This document shows, one piece after another, positions 1,121 through 45,572 of a DNA stretch of 64,000 bases. The notes under the pieces were generated by a model. It saw only the letters and a program-made list of their open reading frames with translations, had not been told where the DNA came from and did not search any database. Source of the DNA: SAR202 cluster bacterium (GTDB lineage Bacteria > Chloroflexota > Dehalococcoidia > UBA6926 > VFHL01). Position 1 is the stretch's first letter; the number at the start of each line of letters is the position of its first letter. The translations under genes and the position numbers were made by a program. The DNA lies in assembly GCA_009392005.1 (NCBI GenBank), contig VFHL01000004.1:1-64000 (forward strand), read 5' to 3'.

Positions 1121-2106
1121 CTACTGAAATTGGCGAGACACTTTTGGATGTTGATGGCCTGAAGCAGTACTTTCCGGTAATGTCAAAAGGAATCATCCCG
1201 CGTCATGTTGCTGACATTAAAGCGGTGGATGATGTTTCTTTTACTGTGAGACGAGGCGAGACATTCGGTTTGGTTGGTGAGAGTGGTTGTGGGAAAACAA
1301 CTACGGGCCGAGCGGTCATGCGTTTATACGAACCGACTGCTGGGACTGTAACCCTTGACGGTGTCAACATCTCTGCACTTGATAATAAAGGCATGCGCGA
1401 AATGCGTCGGCGCATGGCGATGATTTTCCAAGACCCTTATGGATCGTTGGATCCACGTATGAAGTGCGGAGATATTATCGGTGAGCCGCTGGTGGTACAC
1501 GGTCTGACAAATAGCAGAACGGAATACCGAGATCAAGTACAAGAATTGCTAAGGGTTGTTGGACTAAGCCCGTACATGTATGACAGATTCCCACACGAAT
1601 TTAGTGGTGGACAACGCCAACGTATCGGTGTTGCGCGTGCACTTGCATCGCGCCCCGACTTGATCGTCGCGGATGAACCTGTCTCAGCTTTGGATGTGTC
1701 AATTCAAGCACAGATAATTAATTTGTTGGAAGAACTTCAAGAAGAATTTGATTTGACATATATATTTGTGGCGCATGATCTTTCGGTTGTTCGTCATATG
1801 AGTGATCGAATCGCTGTTATGTATCTGGGCCGAATTGTTGAAATCGCGACGAAAGCTGATTTGTATGAGAACCCCATGCATCCGTATACAAAAGCGCTTC
1901 TATCAGCGGTCCCAATTCCTGACCCAGTTGTTGAAAGAGAGAGGGAGCGGATCGTGTTGCTCGGAGAAGTGCCTAGCGCGATGCGAATTCCAGGAGCATG
2001 TCGTTTCCACACTCGATGTCCGATCGCGATTGATGTATGTCGTGAGGATGATCTGGGTCTTGAGGAGAAAGGACCTGATCACTGGGTTGCTTGTCACCGT
2101 GTGTAG
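1117..2106 (+). CDS. Oligopeptide/dipeptide ABC transporter ATP-binding protein (DppF/OppF type)
   Basis: Second ATPase of the pair, 329 aa. Walker A GESGCGKT is at residues 54-61, followed by signature FSGGQRQ, Walker B LIVADEPVSALD and the C-terminal oligo_HPY-type region (CRFHTRCP, later Cys). An upstream in-frame start would add 30 codons, but the ATG overlapping the stop of the preceding gene (ATGA arrangement) is the natural start. Heterodimer formation with the preceding ATPase is inferred from family behaviour. A strong hairpin terminator follows, so the unit contains only the two ATPases. Confidence 0.9.
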   Translation: MTTEIGETLLDVDGLKQYFPVMSKGIIPRHVADIKAVDDVSFTVRRGETFGLVGESGCGKTTTGRAVMRLYEPTAGTVTLDGVNISALDNKGMREMRRRMAMIFQDPYGSLDPRMKCGDIIGEPLVVHGLTNSRTEYRDQVQELLRVVGLSPYMYDRFPHEFSGGQRQRIGVARALASRPDLIVADEPVSALDVSIQAQIINLLEELQEEFDLTYIFVAHDLSVVRHMSDRIAVMYLGRIVEIATKADLYENPMHPYTKALLSAVPIPDPVVERERERIVLLGEVPSAMRIPGACRFHTRCPIAIDVCREDDLGLEEKGPDHWVACHRV

Positions 2107-2131
2107 TTGAGGTTAAAAAAGTAACTATTGG

Positions 2132-2168
2132 AAGAGCCCTTGTCAGATGCTGGCATGGGCTCTTTTCT
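2132..2168 (+). terminator. Rho-independent terminator after the ABC ATPase pair
   Basis: AAGAGCCC (2132-2139) pairs with GGGCTCTT (2157-2164) and is followed by a T-rich tail. It lies 26 bases after the stop of the second ATPase gene. Confidence 0.8.
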
Positions 2169-2261
2169 TTGACATTTAGGACAGTGTTGCTTCATTTTTT
2201 CGGTCCGTTCACCGAAAGTTCAGCTTATTGCCGGTTTGCGTGACGAAGAGGCATGTTAAAT

Positions 2262-5078
2262 ATGAAAAGCCAGATTTTAAATCAAGTATTTGTCTCTTTG
2301 GACCTAGAAACTACAGGGCTTAATTTAGATAATGATGAAATTATCGAAATTGGTGCCATTAAGTTTCAAAATGAAAAAGTTCTGGGGACATTTAAATCAT
2401 TTGTTAAGCCCCCTCGCATGATTCCTGCTTTTGTGTCTTTGATGACAGGTATCACGAATGATGACGTAAATGATGCTCCTGAATTAGACGAAATATCAGC
2501 TGACCTCACTGCGTTTGTTGGAGATTCTGCGATTGTAGGGCAGAACATTTCGTTTGATCTTTCCTTTTTACAAAAACGGGGCATTCTCTTTCGAGGGCCA
2601 GCATACGATACGCTTGAAATGTCACTTATTCTCTGCCCACGATTTCCTGAACATAATTTGTCGGCTCTAGCTCGGGAATTAGGCATAAATGTTAGTAGTG
2701 CGCATCGTGCTCTTGACGATGCGGATACAACGATGCAAGTTTTTAACAGACTGCTTAATAGGGTTGAATCCCTGCAAGAAGAAACGGTACACGCAATGGC
2801 TCCATTGGTTCAGGACCAACTCTGGCCATTTGGAATGTTGCTTCGGTCACGGATTGACTCTCATCTTGCAACAGATTCAGACCAATTTTCCAAACATTTC
2901 GTACAAATAATTTCAGAGCGTATGGATGAGAGTTTTGCCACTCACCCGCGTATTGTTCCGAATTCCACAAGGGAACCGGTAAGTCTTGATGATTTAGGTG
3001 CAATTTTCGACGGGGACAGCAAATTCGCGTCTGCTCGTCAAAACTATGAAATGCGCCCACAACAGAAGAAGATGGCTGTGTCTGTCGGAGAAAGCATCAA
3101 TGATTCTACAAAATTAGTTATTGAAGCTGGGGCTGGTACAGGTAAATCATTGGCATATCTGGTTCCCGCATTATCATATGCCCTGAAAAATGATGAGACT
3201 GTCGTTGTGTCTACATCTACCCGTGGTTTACAAGAGCAGTTAATGACAAAAGACGTTCCTGACGCATTGCTTGCGCTCGGCAAAACCGAAGCGGATGCTC
3301 ACGTAATCACGATAAAAGGGCAAGGTAATTATCTATGCCTCCAAAGATTGATCGAACGTATTCAGGCGATGGTGCAGAGTTATTCTTCAGAGGAAGCAAA
3401 ATTTTTGATTCGTTTGATTGTTTGGTTGGAAGAATCAATCACTGGTGACCAAGGGGAATTAACGCTGTGGGCCCACGAACGAAAATTATGGGACGCAGTT
3501 TCAGCCTGGGATTCAGAAAAGGGAGAGGATTGCTTGTTCCGGCGTCAGGGCAGATGTTTTGTCGATGTAGCTCGTAGACATACTCGTAGTGCACACTTAG
3601 TTCTAACCAACCATGCTTTTCTCCTCGCTGATGCGGCACGGAATAGCGGTTTTTTGGCGCATAGCAGCCATCTAATTGTCGATGAAGCTCATAAATTGGA
3701 AGATGAGGCAACGAATCAGTTTGGTGGAACCTTGGACCACAACGATTTAAGCGAATTGTTTTCTCCTTTTCTACCGCAAACACAAAAAAGAGACTCTTTT
3801 GGAGACCGCATTCAGCACAACATAAAAGGTAACGAGAATTTATCATTGCGTTTAATGGATGTTCAAAAGAGTATTACATCGATAATTGCGTTAGCGGAAC
3901 GGGGAAACAATAATTTGGATGTATTGTTTGACGGTCTCGCAAAATCGCTGAAATTACAAGCAAAAGAAAGTAATAATTATCAGCAACGTCTTCGGATTAC
4001 AAGTGCCACTCATAATCGTGATGAGTGGCATGGGATTGTGAGCACGGTTGAAGACCTAGCTATTCAGTTCAGTGGTCTTCATACTGAACTAGAACGTCTT
4101 GAGCGTATTATGGTCGGTGATGGCATGGCAGATGTTAACGCCGAAATTGTTTCGTTGCGACAGCAAATTGTAACGAAGCAAGAGATCCTCGTTCGCGTAT
4201 TGATTCACACGACAGTAGAAGACATTCGTTGGATCTCCCAAAATCCACGTGGCGGATTGAGCTTGAATTATGCTCCACTTGACGTTGGGCCAACGTTAAA
4301 TGAAAAAGTGTTTTCACAAAACAAGAGCACGGTTTTCACTAGTGCGACTATAAGTCTCGGCAGGACATTTGATTACTTTAAGGGACGATTAGGATTAGAT
4401 GATGCGCAGTCGATTTTACTAGATGAATCTTTTGATTATCGCGATGCAGCGGCTGTATTCATTCCTCGCGATATGCCGGATATGGATACATCGGAATATG
4501 ATAATTCTTTGGGTAATGCTGTGATTGATCTTGTTGAAGCATCGCAAGGTCATGCTTTAATGTTATTTACGTCTCATGCAGCGCTAAGGCGCGTGCACAA
4601 AGTGGTTGCACCTTCGTTGCAAGAGCTAGGTTTTGATGTACTTGCGCAAGGAATTGATGGAAGGCCGGGACAATTAGTTGCGATTTTTCGTGAAAGTGAA
4701 AAAACCTTGCTATTAGGAACAGGAACTTTTTGGGAAGGCGTTGATTTTGCTGGAGATGCTTTGCAATTGTTGATGATGGCTCGTTTGCCTTTTCGAGTCC
4801 CTAATGATCCGATATTTGCAGCGCGATCAGAGATTTATGAAGATCCTTTTAACGAAATGGCTATCCCTGAATCGATCTTGCGTTTCCGCCAAGGATTTGG
4901 ACGATTGATCCGTACTAATAAAGATCACGGGGCCGTGGTGCTTTTTGATAACCGCTTGATTAATAGGCCATACGGGCAATTGTTTCTTGATGCCTTGCCT
5001 GAGACAAATATACAGATGCCAACACTTGATGATCTCCCTGATTTCGTAGGTGGATGGATTCATGACTCAACCGGTTAA
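2262..5078 (+). CDS. dinG: DinG-type exonuclease/ATP-dependent DNA helicase
   Basis: Fusion of an N-terminal DnaQ-type 3'-5' exonuclease and an XPD/DinG superfamily 2 helicase, about 938 aa, as in Gram-positive DinG. The exonuclease DxE motif is in SLDLETTG near the N-terminus. Helicase motifs are Walker A AGAGTGKS, the DEAH box in IVDEAHKLED and the C-terminal RFRQGFGRLIR (motif VI). Only three cysteines are evident where [4Fe-4S] members have four (NYLC, DC, RC), so the cluster may be absent as in other exonuclease-fused DinG proteins. An ATG nine bases upstream is possible, but GAAGAGG is better spaced for the ATG at 2262. It likely acts in repair or R-loop/damage processing; a glycosylase gene follows 18 bases downstream. 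Confidence 0.9.
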   Translation: MKSQILNQVFVSLDLETTGLNLDNDEIIEIGAIKFQNEKVLGTFKSFVKPPRMIPAFVSLMTGITNDDVNDAPELDEISADLTAFVGDSAIVGQNISFDLSFLQKRGILFRGPAYDTLEMSLILCPRFPEHNLSALARELGINVSSAHRALDDADTTMQVFNRLLNRVESLQEETVHAMAPLVQDQLWPFGMLLRSRIDSHLATDSDQFSKHFVQIISERMDESFATHPRIVPNSTREPVSLDDLGAIFDGDSKFASARQNYEMRPQQKKMAVSVGESINDSTKLVIEAGAGTGKSLAYLVPALSYALKNDETVVVSTSTRGLQEQLMTKDVPDALLALGKTEADAHVITIKGQGNYLCLQRLIERIQAMVQSYSSEEAKFLIRLIVWLEESITGDQGELTLWAHERKLWDAVSAWDSEKGEDCLFRRQGRCFVDVARRHTRSAHLVLTNHAFLLADAARNSGFLAHSSHLIVDEAHKLEDEATNQFGGTLDHNDLSELFSPFLPQTQKRDSFGDRIQHNIKGNENLSLRLMDVQKSITSIIALAERGNNNLDVLFDGLAKSLKLQAKESNNYQQRLRITSATHNRDEWHGIVSTVEDLAIQFSGLHTELERLERIMVGDGMADVNAEIVSLRQQIVTKQEILVRVLIHTTVEDIRWISQNPRGGLSLNYAPLDVGPTLNEKVFSQNKSTVFTSATISLGRTFDYFKGRLGLDDAQSILLDESFDYRDAAAVFIPRDMPDMDTSEYDNSLGNAVIDLVEASQGHALMLFTSHAALRRVHKVVAPSLQELGFDVLAQGIDGRPGQLVAIFRESEKTLLLGTGTFWEGVDFAGDALQLLMMARLPFRVPNDPIFAARSEIYEDPFNEMAIPESILRFRQGFGRLIRTNKDHGAVVLFDNRLINRPYGQLFLDALPETNIQMPTLDDLPDFVGGWIHDSTG

Positions 5079-21734: not shown

Positions 21735-22472
21735 CTAGCGGATCAATTTCGCCGCCAAATCGGGGTATGTTTCGGATTCGATCATGTGTGGTTTTACGAC
21801 CTGCCTCAATGTAGTGACTTCTTGTTCAGTGACCGGTGGCGTTTCAGGTATAGAACTTGAGATATCTAGGTCAAAACCGGTGTTTTCTTGAACTTCCTGT
21901 GGCGTATATTTTTCGTGTATAGATTCTAACTCTAAAAGGCGGGTTTCTTGATTTAAAACTAAAATGCACATTGGTGTTATCACTCGGACTTCTCGTGTTC
22001 TGCGAGCGATGCCTTCTGGTGATGTGCCTGCTCCGGATTTATAGCTCACCGTTTCAGGAAAGCTTCTAGGGGTATGCTCAGTTCGAAACATTTGAATTCG
22101 TGGTACAGCGTAATACAGCATGCCAGTTCCGTATTGGCCAGGCATGAGGACATCAGGGTTGTCACGGTCTCCTATAACATGGAGGTTGAAGTTACCATAA
22201 CCGTCAATCTCAATCCCACTGATGTGGAATAGGTCTAGCTGTCCTCGCTGGGCATGGTAATGAAAATCTTTACCGGTAGAAAAAGGCGAATAATCGCGAC
22301 TACCCAGTATGATAATCTCCGCCATGGGTGCATGTGTGTGCTGTGCCAAAAGCATTCCTGCGGCTGGTATAAAAGAAAGTGCACCGCACGCAGACGTTTC
22401 AAAATCTCTAATACCGCGAGACAAGAGGATCGCGAGATGCTCCTCCAAAGTGAGGTCAAATAGTTCTGTCAC
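21735..22472 (-). CDS. Family I CoA-transferase-like subunit B (glutaconate CoA-transferase B/IpdB type)
   Basis: 245 aa, beta subunit fold. HISGIEIDGYGNFNLHVIGD and MYYAVPR-type stretches match the family. The usual catalytic Glu in an E-[SN]-G motif is not seen; the corresponding region reads IIILGSRDYS. Loss of that Glu is a feature of IpdB, whose complex with IpdA is a ring-opening hydrolase rather than a transferase. The ATG overlaps the stop of subunit A (ATGA), so the two are coupled. FAA-hydrolase genes lie upstream in the same direction. Confidence 0.82.
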   Translation of the reverse strand: MTELFDLTLEEHLAILLSRGIRDFETSACGALSFIPAAGMLLAQHTHAPMAEIIILGSRDYSPFSTGKDFHYHAQRGQLDLFHISGIEIDGYGNFNLHVIGDRDNPDVLMPGQYGTGMLYYAVPRIQMFRTEHTPRSFPETVSYKSGAGTSPEGIARRTREVRVITPMCILVLNQETRLLELESIHEKYTPQEVQENTGFDLDISSSIPETPPVTEQEVTTLRQVVKPHMIESETYPDLAAKLIR

Positions 22473-23341
22473 GCGTTGATAAGCTCAGGGGTTAGTGTCA
22501 AATTCATTAACTTAAGAAACTCTTCGTGGTTTAATACGTTGTGTACATATTTGTTTATATAATTCTTGAAGGTTTCTTCTGATTGTGCTGCATCGACATA
22601 TTCTTGGAGTTGGTCATTATCGGCTGAGTAGTAGCCCGGCGCTGCAGTTGGGTAAGCACCGAAGGGAGCATGAACCACTGCTGTAATATGTATAGATGGT
22701 ATCACCCATCCATCAGTATCATCCGGGTCAACTGTATCGACTATTTCTTCAACGGTGACGATGACTTTTCGAGCTGATTGAGCGAGCATTAATTCGTCGC
22801 CGCCTTTACGAACAACTACATTACCAAACTTATCTGCCTTCAAACCATGGAAAATTCCGATATCTGGATTGATTGCTTTTGCTACAACATACGTCTCATG
22901 CTGTTCAAACGGATTCCGTTCGATTTTAAACGTATCAGAGCGTCTTTCAATGATATCGGTACCTGAAAATCCTCTAACAGGTACATATGGAACTCCCATT
23001 GATCCAGCCTGGACCATTGAGTAGAGGATTCCTCAGGTGTTATCCAGCATCTTAATCTGGTTGCTTTTTTGATATCGTTCATAATTTGGTGCGACTCGCG
23101 AGAAACTGCCGAAGTCTAGGCTACATGTCTCCATTTGGCCGGTGGATCCTGAGCCGATCAGGAAATCCATGTTCATGGCTCCGCCAACGACCGCCATCGT
23201 GTAGACATCCTTGATCCCTTTGCGGACAAGTTCTCGAAGCATCGCCATGGGTGTCCAGTTCATGCCACCGTTAAAGATGATTTGATCACCATCGCGCACA
23301 ATCGTTGCTGCTTGATCCAAGGTAATCTGTTTATTTCGCAT
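22469..23341 (-). CDS. Family I CoA-transferase-like subunit A with in-frame TGA (codon 103)
   Basis: 290 codons from an ATG with ribosome site GGAGGGG. The reading frame is intact on both sides of a single TGA (23033-23035). Before it: QIIFNGGMNWTPMAMLREL and VVGGAMNMDFL. After it: MVQAGSMGVPYVPVRG, NPDIGIFHGLKADKFGNVV and the APGYYSAD region. No frameshift is needed: the second half simply continues in the same frame. By recalled alignment the TGA falls next to or at the catalytic Glu position of IpdA (E105). Options are nonsense mutation, assembly error or selenocysteine. Subunit B is translationally coupled and intact. Confidence 0.75.
23000..23016 (-). promoter_or_regulatory. SECIS-like hairpin downstream of the TGA in CoA-transferase subunit A
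   Basis: On the minus strand TGGTCC-AGGCT-GGATCA forms a 6-bp stem (one G-U) with loop AGGCT, starting 17 bases after the TGA. The loop resembles the AGGUCU loop of E. coli fdhF, and the distance lies in the bacterial range. Such hairpins are easy to find by chance, so this is suggestive only. Confidence 0.3.
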
Positions 23342-23485
23342 GAGAGACCCCTCCAATAATCCAATGGAACTCTTATCATTGTGGCCACTGCGTTATGGTA
23401 ACTTTATTCACTTCTCGTGTCAAAGCTGTTCTAATCAGATGGAGCAATTAATCCAACTAAATTTCATTGAATTCAGTTGCTTGCT

Positions 23486-44487: not shown

Positions 44488-44595
44488 AAGGTAAACATAT
44501 CTGTATGGATTTTGATAATCAATCTGTTGGGTATAACTATCGGACAAATCAAATCTAGTTTGTACTAAGTAATGAGATGATATTAGGAGAAGCCC

Positions 44596-44957
44596 ATGGA
44601 CGAAATCGAAGTGATATTGCAACAATTCGATTCACGTGATGAAATAAAGATTTTTGATAAAGGTTCATATGAAACGGTAATAATAAATAATATGATAATG
44701 GGAGAGCGACCTATGAGCCAGGTTGGAAATGGTCAGAGCACGTAGGTCCTTCGATCGGGAAAGAATTTTGTGATGTAGAGCACGTTGGGATGGTTATCTC
44801 TGGTGTTTGTACAGCCGCATTTCCAGATGGAGAAGTTGCCACTATGAAACCCGGCGATATCTTTTTCGTGCCATCACGCCCCCATGATAGTTGGGTTGTT
44901 GGAAATGAGCCGTATGTTTCTGTTCATTTGCTAGGTGCTGATAACTATACGAAGTGA
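44596..44957 (+). pseudogene. Cupin-domain protein with a single-base frameshift
   Basis: Good ribosome site AGGAGA before the ATG. The first frame (44596-44745) gives a cupin N-terminus, then runs off into TAG. A frame shifted by -1 from about 44703 continues it: ATYEPGWKWSEHVGP, then VEHVGMVISG, MKPGDIFFVPSRPHDSW and the end at 44957. Restoring one base after ATGGG would give about 120 aa with the metal-binding His pattern. Either a real deletion or a homopolymer read error. Confidence 0.75.
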
Positions 44958-44967
44958 ATGATGCTCA

Positions 44968-45465
44968 TCAATTTGTGTGAGAAAGTCGCAAGGCCTTCCG
45001 TATTGCTTCAGCAGATGGTAGTCGACCTAATGCGCGCAATATTTCACTACCGTTTTGGTCTAGTAAGAGATATGTGGGCACGCCAACAACATTGGAATTT
45101 CGCATGAAATTTTGGCCATTGATTGTTCTGCTATCAACTCGCGTCACTGTGACTCTGCCTGCCAGTTCAGCCTCTAGCCTGTCAACGAAAGGCTTAGCCG
45201 CAAGGCATACAGCTCAGTAGTTCGAATACACTACAACGAGGCTAGGTTCTTGCATGCTATTGGTGGTTTCAGGATACAGGGGCGGTTCTAATCCTTGTTG
45301 GGAATTTGTGGATATAACTTGAAAGATCAATAGGACAAATATTGTGCAAGCCGTTCCAATTAAACCAGCCTTTAAGCCAAGTCTACTTTGCGCAATTAGG
45401 AATACGGTGGTTGCAATAAACATTGCAATTATGACAAATGAGTAAGTATTAAGAAACTTTTCCAC
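44968..45465 (-). CDS. Membrane-anchored thioredoxin-fold selenoprotein candidate (UxxC)
   Basis: 165 codons read from a GTG, with TGA (45214-45216) as codon 84. Two hydrophobic helices (about 7-25 and 31-50), then a linker and a thioredoxin fold: SLVVVYSNY, then TGA-Ala-Val-Cys, LAAKPFVDRLEAELAGRV, and the cis-proline GVPTYLLLDQNG near the end. The TGA falls exactly on the first Cys of the CxxC motif, the resolving Cys is kept, and the frame runs on to TGA at 44968-44970. Read as selenocysteine this is a UxxC redox protein facing outside the cell. A Cys-to-stop mutation is the alternative. Confidence 0.7.
45176..45194 (-). promoter_or_regulatory. SECIS-like hairpin after the UxxC TGA
   Basis: Minus strand AGCCT (45190-45194) pairs with AGGCT (45176-45180). 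Inside, a U-C mismatch, two more pairs and a GUU apical loop at 28-30 bases after the TGA fit the loose bacterial SECIS pattern (G in the first loop positions). Unproven. Confidence 0.35.
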
Positions 45466-45495: not shown

Positions 45496-45572
45496 TGGTA
45501 GCCCATACGGGATTCGAACCCGTGATCTCCGCCTTGAGAGGGCGGTGTCCTTGGCCGCTAGACGAATGGGCC
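45496..45572 (-). tRNA. tRNA-Glu(CTC)
   Basis: Acceptor GGCCCAT/ATGGGCT, anticodon loop CTCTCAA on a CCGCC/GGCGG stem, T loop TTCGAAT, discriminator A and an encoded CCA. Sits about 0.4 kb from gltX, whose product charges it. Confidence 0.95.

Follow-up and report, generated by a model that had tools for sequence, protein, structure and literature searches.

A thioredoxin-like gene interrupted by TGA in a SAR202 bacterium: a predicted membrane-anchored selenoprotein of a family recurring in Chloroflexota

The DNA analysed here (the window) is a stretch of 64,000 nucleotides from contig VFHL01000004.1 of a SAR202 cluster bacterium. On its minus strand, immediately downstream of a tRNA-Glu gene whose end lies 30 bases before a GTG start codon, is a reading frame broken only by a TGA at codon 84 (Table 1). 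Translation yields 83 residues before this TGA and 81 after it, and the frame then closes with two TGA codons in a row, the second at 44965-44967. The GTG start is supported by relatives from other genera, because their N-termini (MSTLNENS, LFSFLNQTS, MQTFLNQYS) begin at the aligned codon; these relatives have an N-terminal [LI]NxYS motif in common. Scanned at Rfam gathering thresholds, the window gave tRNAs only. A cupin-like gene on the plus strand (approximately 44560-44955) converges with the interrupted gene. It is seemingly split between two frames, with a change near 44703-44720 that reflects either a frameshift error or a pseudogene.

Table 1. Features of the window discussed in the text (minus-strand coordinates are given in window numbering).
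Feature	Position	Strand	Description	Basis
Predicted selenoprotein gene	44968..45465	-	GTG start at 45465; TGA stop at 44968-44970; 165 residues with Sec84	Translation
Predicted Sec-UGA, codon 84	45214..45216	-	Position 1 of UxxC	Aligned TGA in 18 training and 19 held-out genes
Cys87	45205-45207	-	Second Cys of UxxC	
Thioredoxin domain	45022..45264	-	Residues 68-148	Pfam PF00085; AlphaFold2 model; best PDB matches
cis-Pro130	45076-45078	-	GVPTY	
Predicted bSECIS hairpin	45176..45194	-	8-bp stem with one mismatch, GUU apical loop	Covariation; held-out test; published rules
Predicted transmembrane helix 1	45379..45441	-	Residues 9-29	AlphaFold2 helix; hydropathy up to 2.19
Predicted transmembrane helix 2	45304..45375	-	Residues 31-54	AlphaFold2 helix; hydropathy; loop charge
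tRNA-Glu (CTC)	45496..45572	-	Immediately upstream of the selenoprotein gene	ARAGORN and Rfam
CoA-transferase alpha-subunit-like gene (PF01144)	22469-23356	-	TGA codon 108 at 23033-23035, NT-U-GILYSMVQAGS	
CoA-transferase beta-like gene	21738-22472	-	Overlaps the end of the alpha-like gene	

The region around and beyond the TGA corresponds to a thioredoxin domain. It scores 31.2 bits against Pfam Thioredoxin PF00085 (cut-off 23.5), and the AlphaFold2 model, built with 22 homologues (mean pLDDT 87.8), shows two helices followed by a thioredoxin fold, with thioredoxins as its best PDB matches. Score, fold, the redox motif UAVC and the GVP cis-Pro all agree with membership in PF00085. Against the thioredoxin equivalog model TIGR01068 the protein reached 30.3 bits, below the 96.8 cut-off, and should therefore be regarded as thioredoxin-like rather than as a canonical TrxA. 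The original prediction, made from the letters of this DNA alone, was that a minus-strand frame resumes in phase after the TGA, that this TGA takes the place of the first Cys of a CxxC motif whose second Cys is retained, and that a complete thioredoxin fold with a cis-Pro follows. All three points were borne out, and homologues with Cys have TGC or TGT at the site of the TGA.

Homologues of the gene were sought at increasing distance. Among 7 genomes of the order, it is carried by two other genera, both with TGA at codon 84 and approximately 30% identity. A query with the single protein against wider genome contigs found no relative, and a three-row alignment found five; Anaerolineales MAGs were among the named matches of this second search, which places the family in Chloroflexota. 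It recurs among the 393 genomes of the class and the 400 of the phylum that were searched, mostly with one TGA; in the phylum search, 30 loci were fetched for inspection out of many TGA matches. In translated members the TGA occupies the first redox position, and in others TGC or TGT is found there. Thus both forms anticipated for codon 84 exist in Chloroflexota, and the stops at random sites that would have spoken against a selenoprotein were not seen. The presence of the putative Sec codon at this position is far beyond what chance would produce, since relatives of 20-34% identity have their TGA at the identical codon, with the protein conserved on both sides. The same arrangement recurring across Chloroflexota argues for a real selenoprotein family.

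In a tree of 46 rows, 32 had TGA and 14 had Cys at the position of codon 84. Nine changes of the Sec/Cys label are needed on this tree, and at least four are forced by supported branches; the branch leading to the window protein is long (1.72). One genome (G189) carries both forms, L072 with Sec and L038 with Cys. Other arrangements were met along the way. At two loci (L033 of G384 and L037 of G146, approximately 2036-2584), a second UxxC thioredoxin gene lies directly downstream of the two-helix gene, with its own hairpin and what looks by eye like a lipoprotein-like N-terminus, forming a tandem selenoprotein pair. In a distant thioredoxin-like gene (L052, G353), two in-frame TGA codons form a UxxU motif (TDGUVPUAQTKP), accompanied by an 8-bp hairpin with no mismatch. 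Another locus (L103, G496) contains a partial second copy in tandem, with TGA and without the resolving Cys (SHYUARSLA, UxxS).

The original prediction hung on selA, selB, selC and selD being encoded in the genome, and all four were found upon scanning it (1.6 Mb, 94.9% complete): selA (542 bits), selB (378 bits, above cut-off), selD (377 bits) and selC, the tRNA-Sec (73.9 bits versus a gathering score of 47, also called tRNA-SeC by ARAGORN). The selD gene (L019, G000:C7, approximately 1402-2439, minus strand) itself has an in-frame TGA (motif NCAGUAGK), so that selenocysteine would be used elsewhere in the same genome; selenophosphate synthetase is listed among selenoproteins (PMC13188914). 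Among relatives, selA was present in 34 of 35 TGA-bearing genomes tested (15/16 in one set and 19/19 in the other), the lone exception, G034, being 71% complete. It was found in 13 of 15 genomes having only Cys forms, and in 11 of 20 without any family member. The comparison of TGA genomes with those lacking the family gives a Fisher p of 0.0002, which is only indicative, since shared ancestry keeps the genomes from being independent samples.

As foreseen, a hairpin with a GUU apical loop lies 28-30 nt past the TGA, that is, with 27 nt between UGA and loop. In the window its sequence is AGCCUUUC-GUU-GACAGGCU, in which 7 of 8 pairs form, with one U/C mismatch. The alignment of homologues is free of gaps from the TGA to column 51, stem and 3-nt loop occupying columns 23-41. 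Among 18 TGA genes, the 8-bp stem closed by a 3-nt loop had 89.6% standard pairs, versus 20-44% when the partner strand was slid by one to three columns. Covariation was 0.355; shuffled alignments gave 0.126, none of 500 reaching the observed value, and sliding the partner strand gave no more than 0.103. The phylum search supplied 19 further TGA genes that played no part in defining the structure. In these held-out genes, a mean of 7.0 of 8 pairs formed and G was first in the loop in every case; covariance model R1 recovered the hairpin in these genes with E values of 1e-8 or better. RNAalifold, run on the alignment, recovered only 5 of the 8 pairs.

The hairpin is tied to the TGA. Across 10 Cys genes, the same columns were 48.8% paired (mean 3.9 of 8), little above shuffles, and the mean was 3.2 of 8 in 6 held-out Cys genes. 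One Cys homologue (L090, G404), with the motif CLVC, keeps 6 of 8 pairs with a CUG loop, as if its SECIS were decaying following a recent replacement of Sec by Cys. Another homologue, L017, has the loop UUG instead of GUN. In 36 of 37 TGA genes, the third base of a Pro codon, a synonymous position, can pair with the first base four codons downstream (CG 24, UA 7, GC 5), whereas 100,000 shuffles gave a mean of 18.4 and a maximum of 29. Protein constraint alone would not explain this pairing, which is the cleanest signal of the putative hairpin.

Published rules for bSECIS elements ask for a loop of 3-9 nt, a stem of 4-16 bp, a G within the first two loop positions, and a distance of 16-37 nt from the UGA (PMC13188914). 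With its 3-nt GUU loop, its 8 bp including one mismatch and its 27-nt spacing, the window hairpin falls within the loop, stem and spacing rules. Folding energy was -5.5 kcal/mol for the 19-nt hairpin alone, weaker than the published threshold of -7.5, and -15.1 kcal/mol from UGA to +43, so that the threshold is reached only with the surrounding sequence counted in. The Rfam model SECIS_1 (RF00031) had no match in the genome; this blank is uninformative, because the model matched no control either. On comparative sequence evidence, the hairpin is a bacterial SECIS, maintained together with the TGA and lost in the Cys genes examined.

Could the TGA be something else than a selenocysteine codon? 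The genome is a MAG, and the cupin gene just downstream is apparently frameshifted, so one may think of a sequencing error, or of a disabling mutation that turned an ordinary CxxC gene into a pseudogene. However, dozens of genomes that were assembled independently and represent many families have TGA at this very codon, and the protein downstream of it is intact and accompanied by a covarying hairpin. This conservation at codon 84 refutes an error or a pseudogene, which we regard as exceedingly improbable. A true stop, leaving an 83-residue two-helix membrane protein with the rest silent or separate, would be in line with the normal use of TGA in the window, where it ends 18 of 52 long ORFs. 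It is nevertheless very unlikely, if slightly less so than an error: every relative preserves the part beyond this site as a full thioredoxin fold at the protein level, no break interrupts the frame in the Cys homologues, and the SECIS is kept only where the TGA is present. The same 18 ORFs, most of which have a short read-through, speak against a general reassignment of TGA to Trp, Gly or Cys in this organism, as do the complete Sec pathway and the TGA TGA at the end of the gene itself. With TGA terminating normally in the window and nothing specific in its favour, reassignment was rejected and has practically no credit left.

A different question is on which side of the membrane the selenoprotein would work. 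The original prediction placed the redox domain outside the cell, behind two N-terminal helices. The helices are indeed predicted, and the outside location is suggested by the charge distribution and a model. In 22 homologues, the mean net charge is +2.3 in the loop between the helices, -0.2 at the N-terminus and -1.0 after the second helix; the positive loop is thus predicted to be cytoplasmic, and with flanks neutral or negative, both ends and the thioredoxin domain should be outside. The alternative is a membrane-tethered thioredoxin with its domain in the cytoplasm, served by thioredoxin reductase. Two helices, being an even number, tell only that both ends share one side, and among solved structures the closest are those of cytosolic thioredoxins, but this arrangement runs counter to the charge pattern, and to the paralogues of G146 and G384 whose N-termini, judged by eye, are lipoprotein-like. 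We consider a cytoplasmic domain unlikely, with perhaps some chance of being right, and an outward-facing domain likely, given the charge distribution and the model.

Reading the window for further TGA-interrupted frames exposed a CoA-transferase alpha-subunit-like gene, probably a second selenoprotein of the window. Its TGA stands in the same alignment column in 13 of the 19 class genomes with the gene, the window genome included; among the other rows, L111 has TGC for Cys, four that are distant carry Gly, and L113 does not extend over this column. A hairpin of the type CUCC-AGGCU-GGAG, with AGGCU as its loop, follows the TGA by approximately 22 nt. Its 5 pairs are 98.3% kept in 12 TGA genes, one pair covarying, and by eye the Cys gene L111 is without it. 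Compared with the solved beta chain of glutaconate CoA-transferase (1POI_B), the neighbouring beta-like sequence has no ESG glutamate, a residue which we take to be catalytic. With this residue lost, the two subunits together may carry out a reaction other than CoA transfer. Neither the 2022 nor the 2026 selenoprotein review lists CoA-transferases, and this candidate may be more novel than the thioredoxin one.

How new is the thioredoxin-like family itself? The 2026 catalogue includes thioredoxin (PF00085) and several thioredoxin-like UxxC selenoproteins (PMC13188914), so the kind is already known. The window family shares with them the thioredoxin fold, an N-terminal redox Sec with Cys at +3, and a bSECIS within the coding region (PMC13188914). 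It differs by its two N-terminal helices, its [LI]NxYS motif, its spread over Chloroflexota, and a U-to-C spacer that is mostly hydrophobic (UAVC, UIAC, UIGC) instead of GP. None of the NCBIfam selenoprotein models matches the window protein at cut-off, including NF045500 (GOS_C) and NF047660. The rhodanese/DsbD-fusion model TsoB (NF045694) gives weak local similarity in the thioredoxin region (15.0 and 20.2 bits), far below its cut-off of 805 bits, and TsoB is a rhodanese fusion with UxxxxU. The C-terminal domain of DsbD (1VRS chain D) is a structural match with an extracytoplasmic thioredoxin fold, but the window protein lacks the fused electron-carrying membrane domain and has two plain anchor helices only. 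The group cd02950 is presumably that of the membrane-associated cyanobacterial TxlA. In the 2008 GOS survey, a set named 'Trx-like 3' comprises 212 UxxC sequences, distant to cd02950 and commoner in marine samples (PMC2398784). Marine origin, UxxC and a distant thioredoxin relationship recall our family, and the two, compared by description only, could be the same. If so, the family was seen in 2008, and the survey's passages on the set neither place it in Chloroflexota nor describe it as anchored. The claim of a new selenoprotein has in its favour that no NCBIfam model fits, and is weakened by the known kind and by 'Trx-like 3', which may include the family.

Altogether, the apparent stop is almost certainly read as selenocysteine, so that the product is a thioredoxin-like redox protein, complete and anchored in the membrane. 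The best explanation of the whole, in which we have high confidence, is a 165-residue Sec84 selenoprotein directed by SelB and bSECIS, with a two-helix anchor and a probably outward-facing UxxC oxidoreductase domain. SelB would deliver Sec-tRNA(Sec) to UGA-84, guided by the hairpin; the helices would hold the protein in the membrane with its two ends on the outer side, as the positive-inside charge suggests. From the UxxC motif, Sec84 would attack disulfides or oxidised thiols outside the membrane, and Cys87 would resolve the selenenylsulfide. As Sec and Cys were swapped several times in the family, the chemistry should be that of an ordinary UxxC/CxxC oxidoreductase, and the likeliest role of the protein would be to act on exported proteins, reducing their disulfides or oxidised thiols. 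Electrons may most plausibly come from the CcdA/DsbD-like membrane protein encoded in the genome (G000:C1:162077-162628), whose CcdA-like match barely passes its cut-off (27.2 versus 27.1 bits). The adjacent genes include no conserved redox partner, and gene context gives no function, because neighbourhoods are shared only among close relatives. With a marginal CcdA-like match and no conserved redox neighbour, donor and substrate are guesses.

Standard gene calling leaves here an anonymous 83-residue membrane fragment, and annotation tends to halve genes of this family; the covarying hairpin provides a specific SECIS model for finding more members. The paired Sec and Cys forms, both present in G189, offer a direct comparison of selenium's benefit. 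According to these findings, redox chemistry that depends on selenium is common throughout a phylum that is abundant but mostly uncultured. Tentatively, and with somewhat less than even confidence, we propose that a so far unnamed family of anchored Sec thioredoxins, facing outward and present phylum-wide, serves Chloroflexota as a main thiol reductase outside the cytoplasm, with the Sec form prevailing, repeated swaps between Sec and Cys, and loss of the SECIS in Cys forms. If this is true, the family would be a natural test of why selenocysteine is retained.
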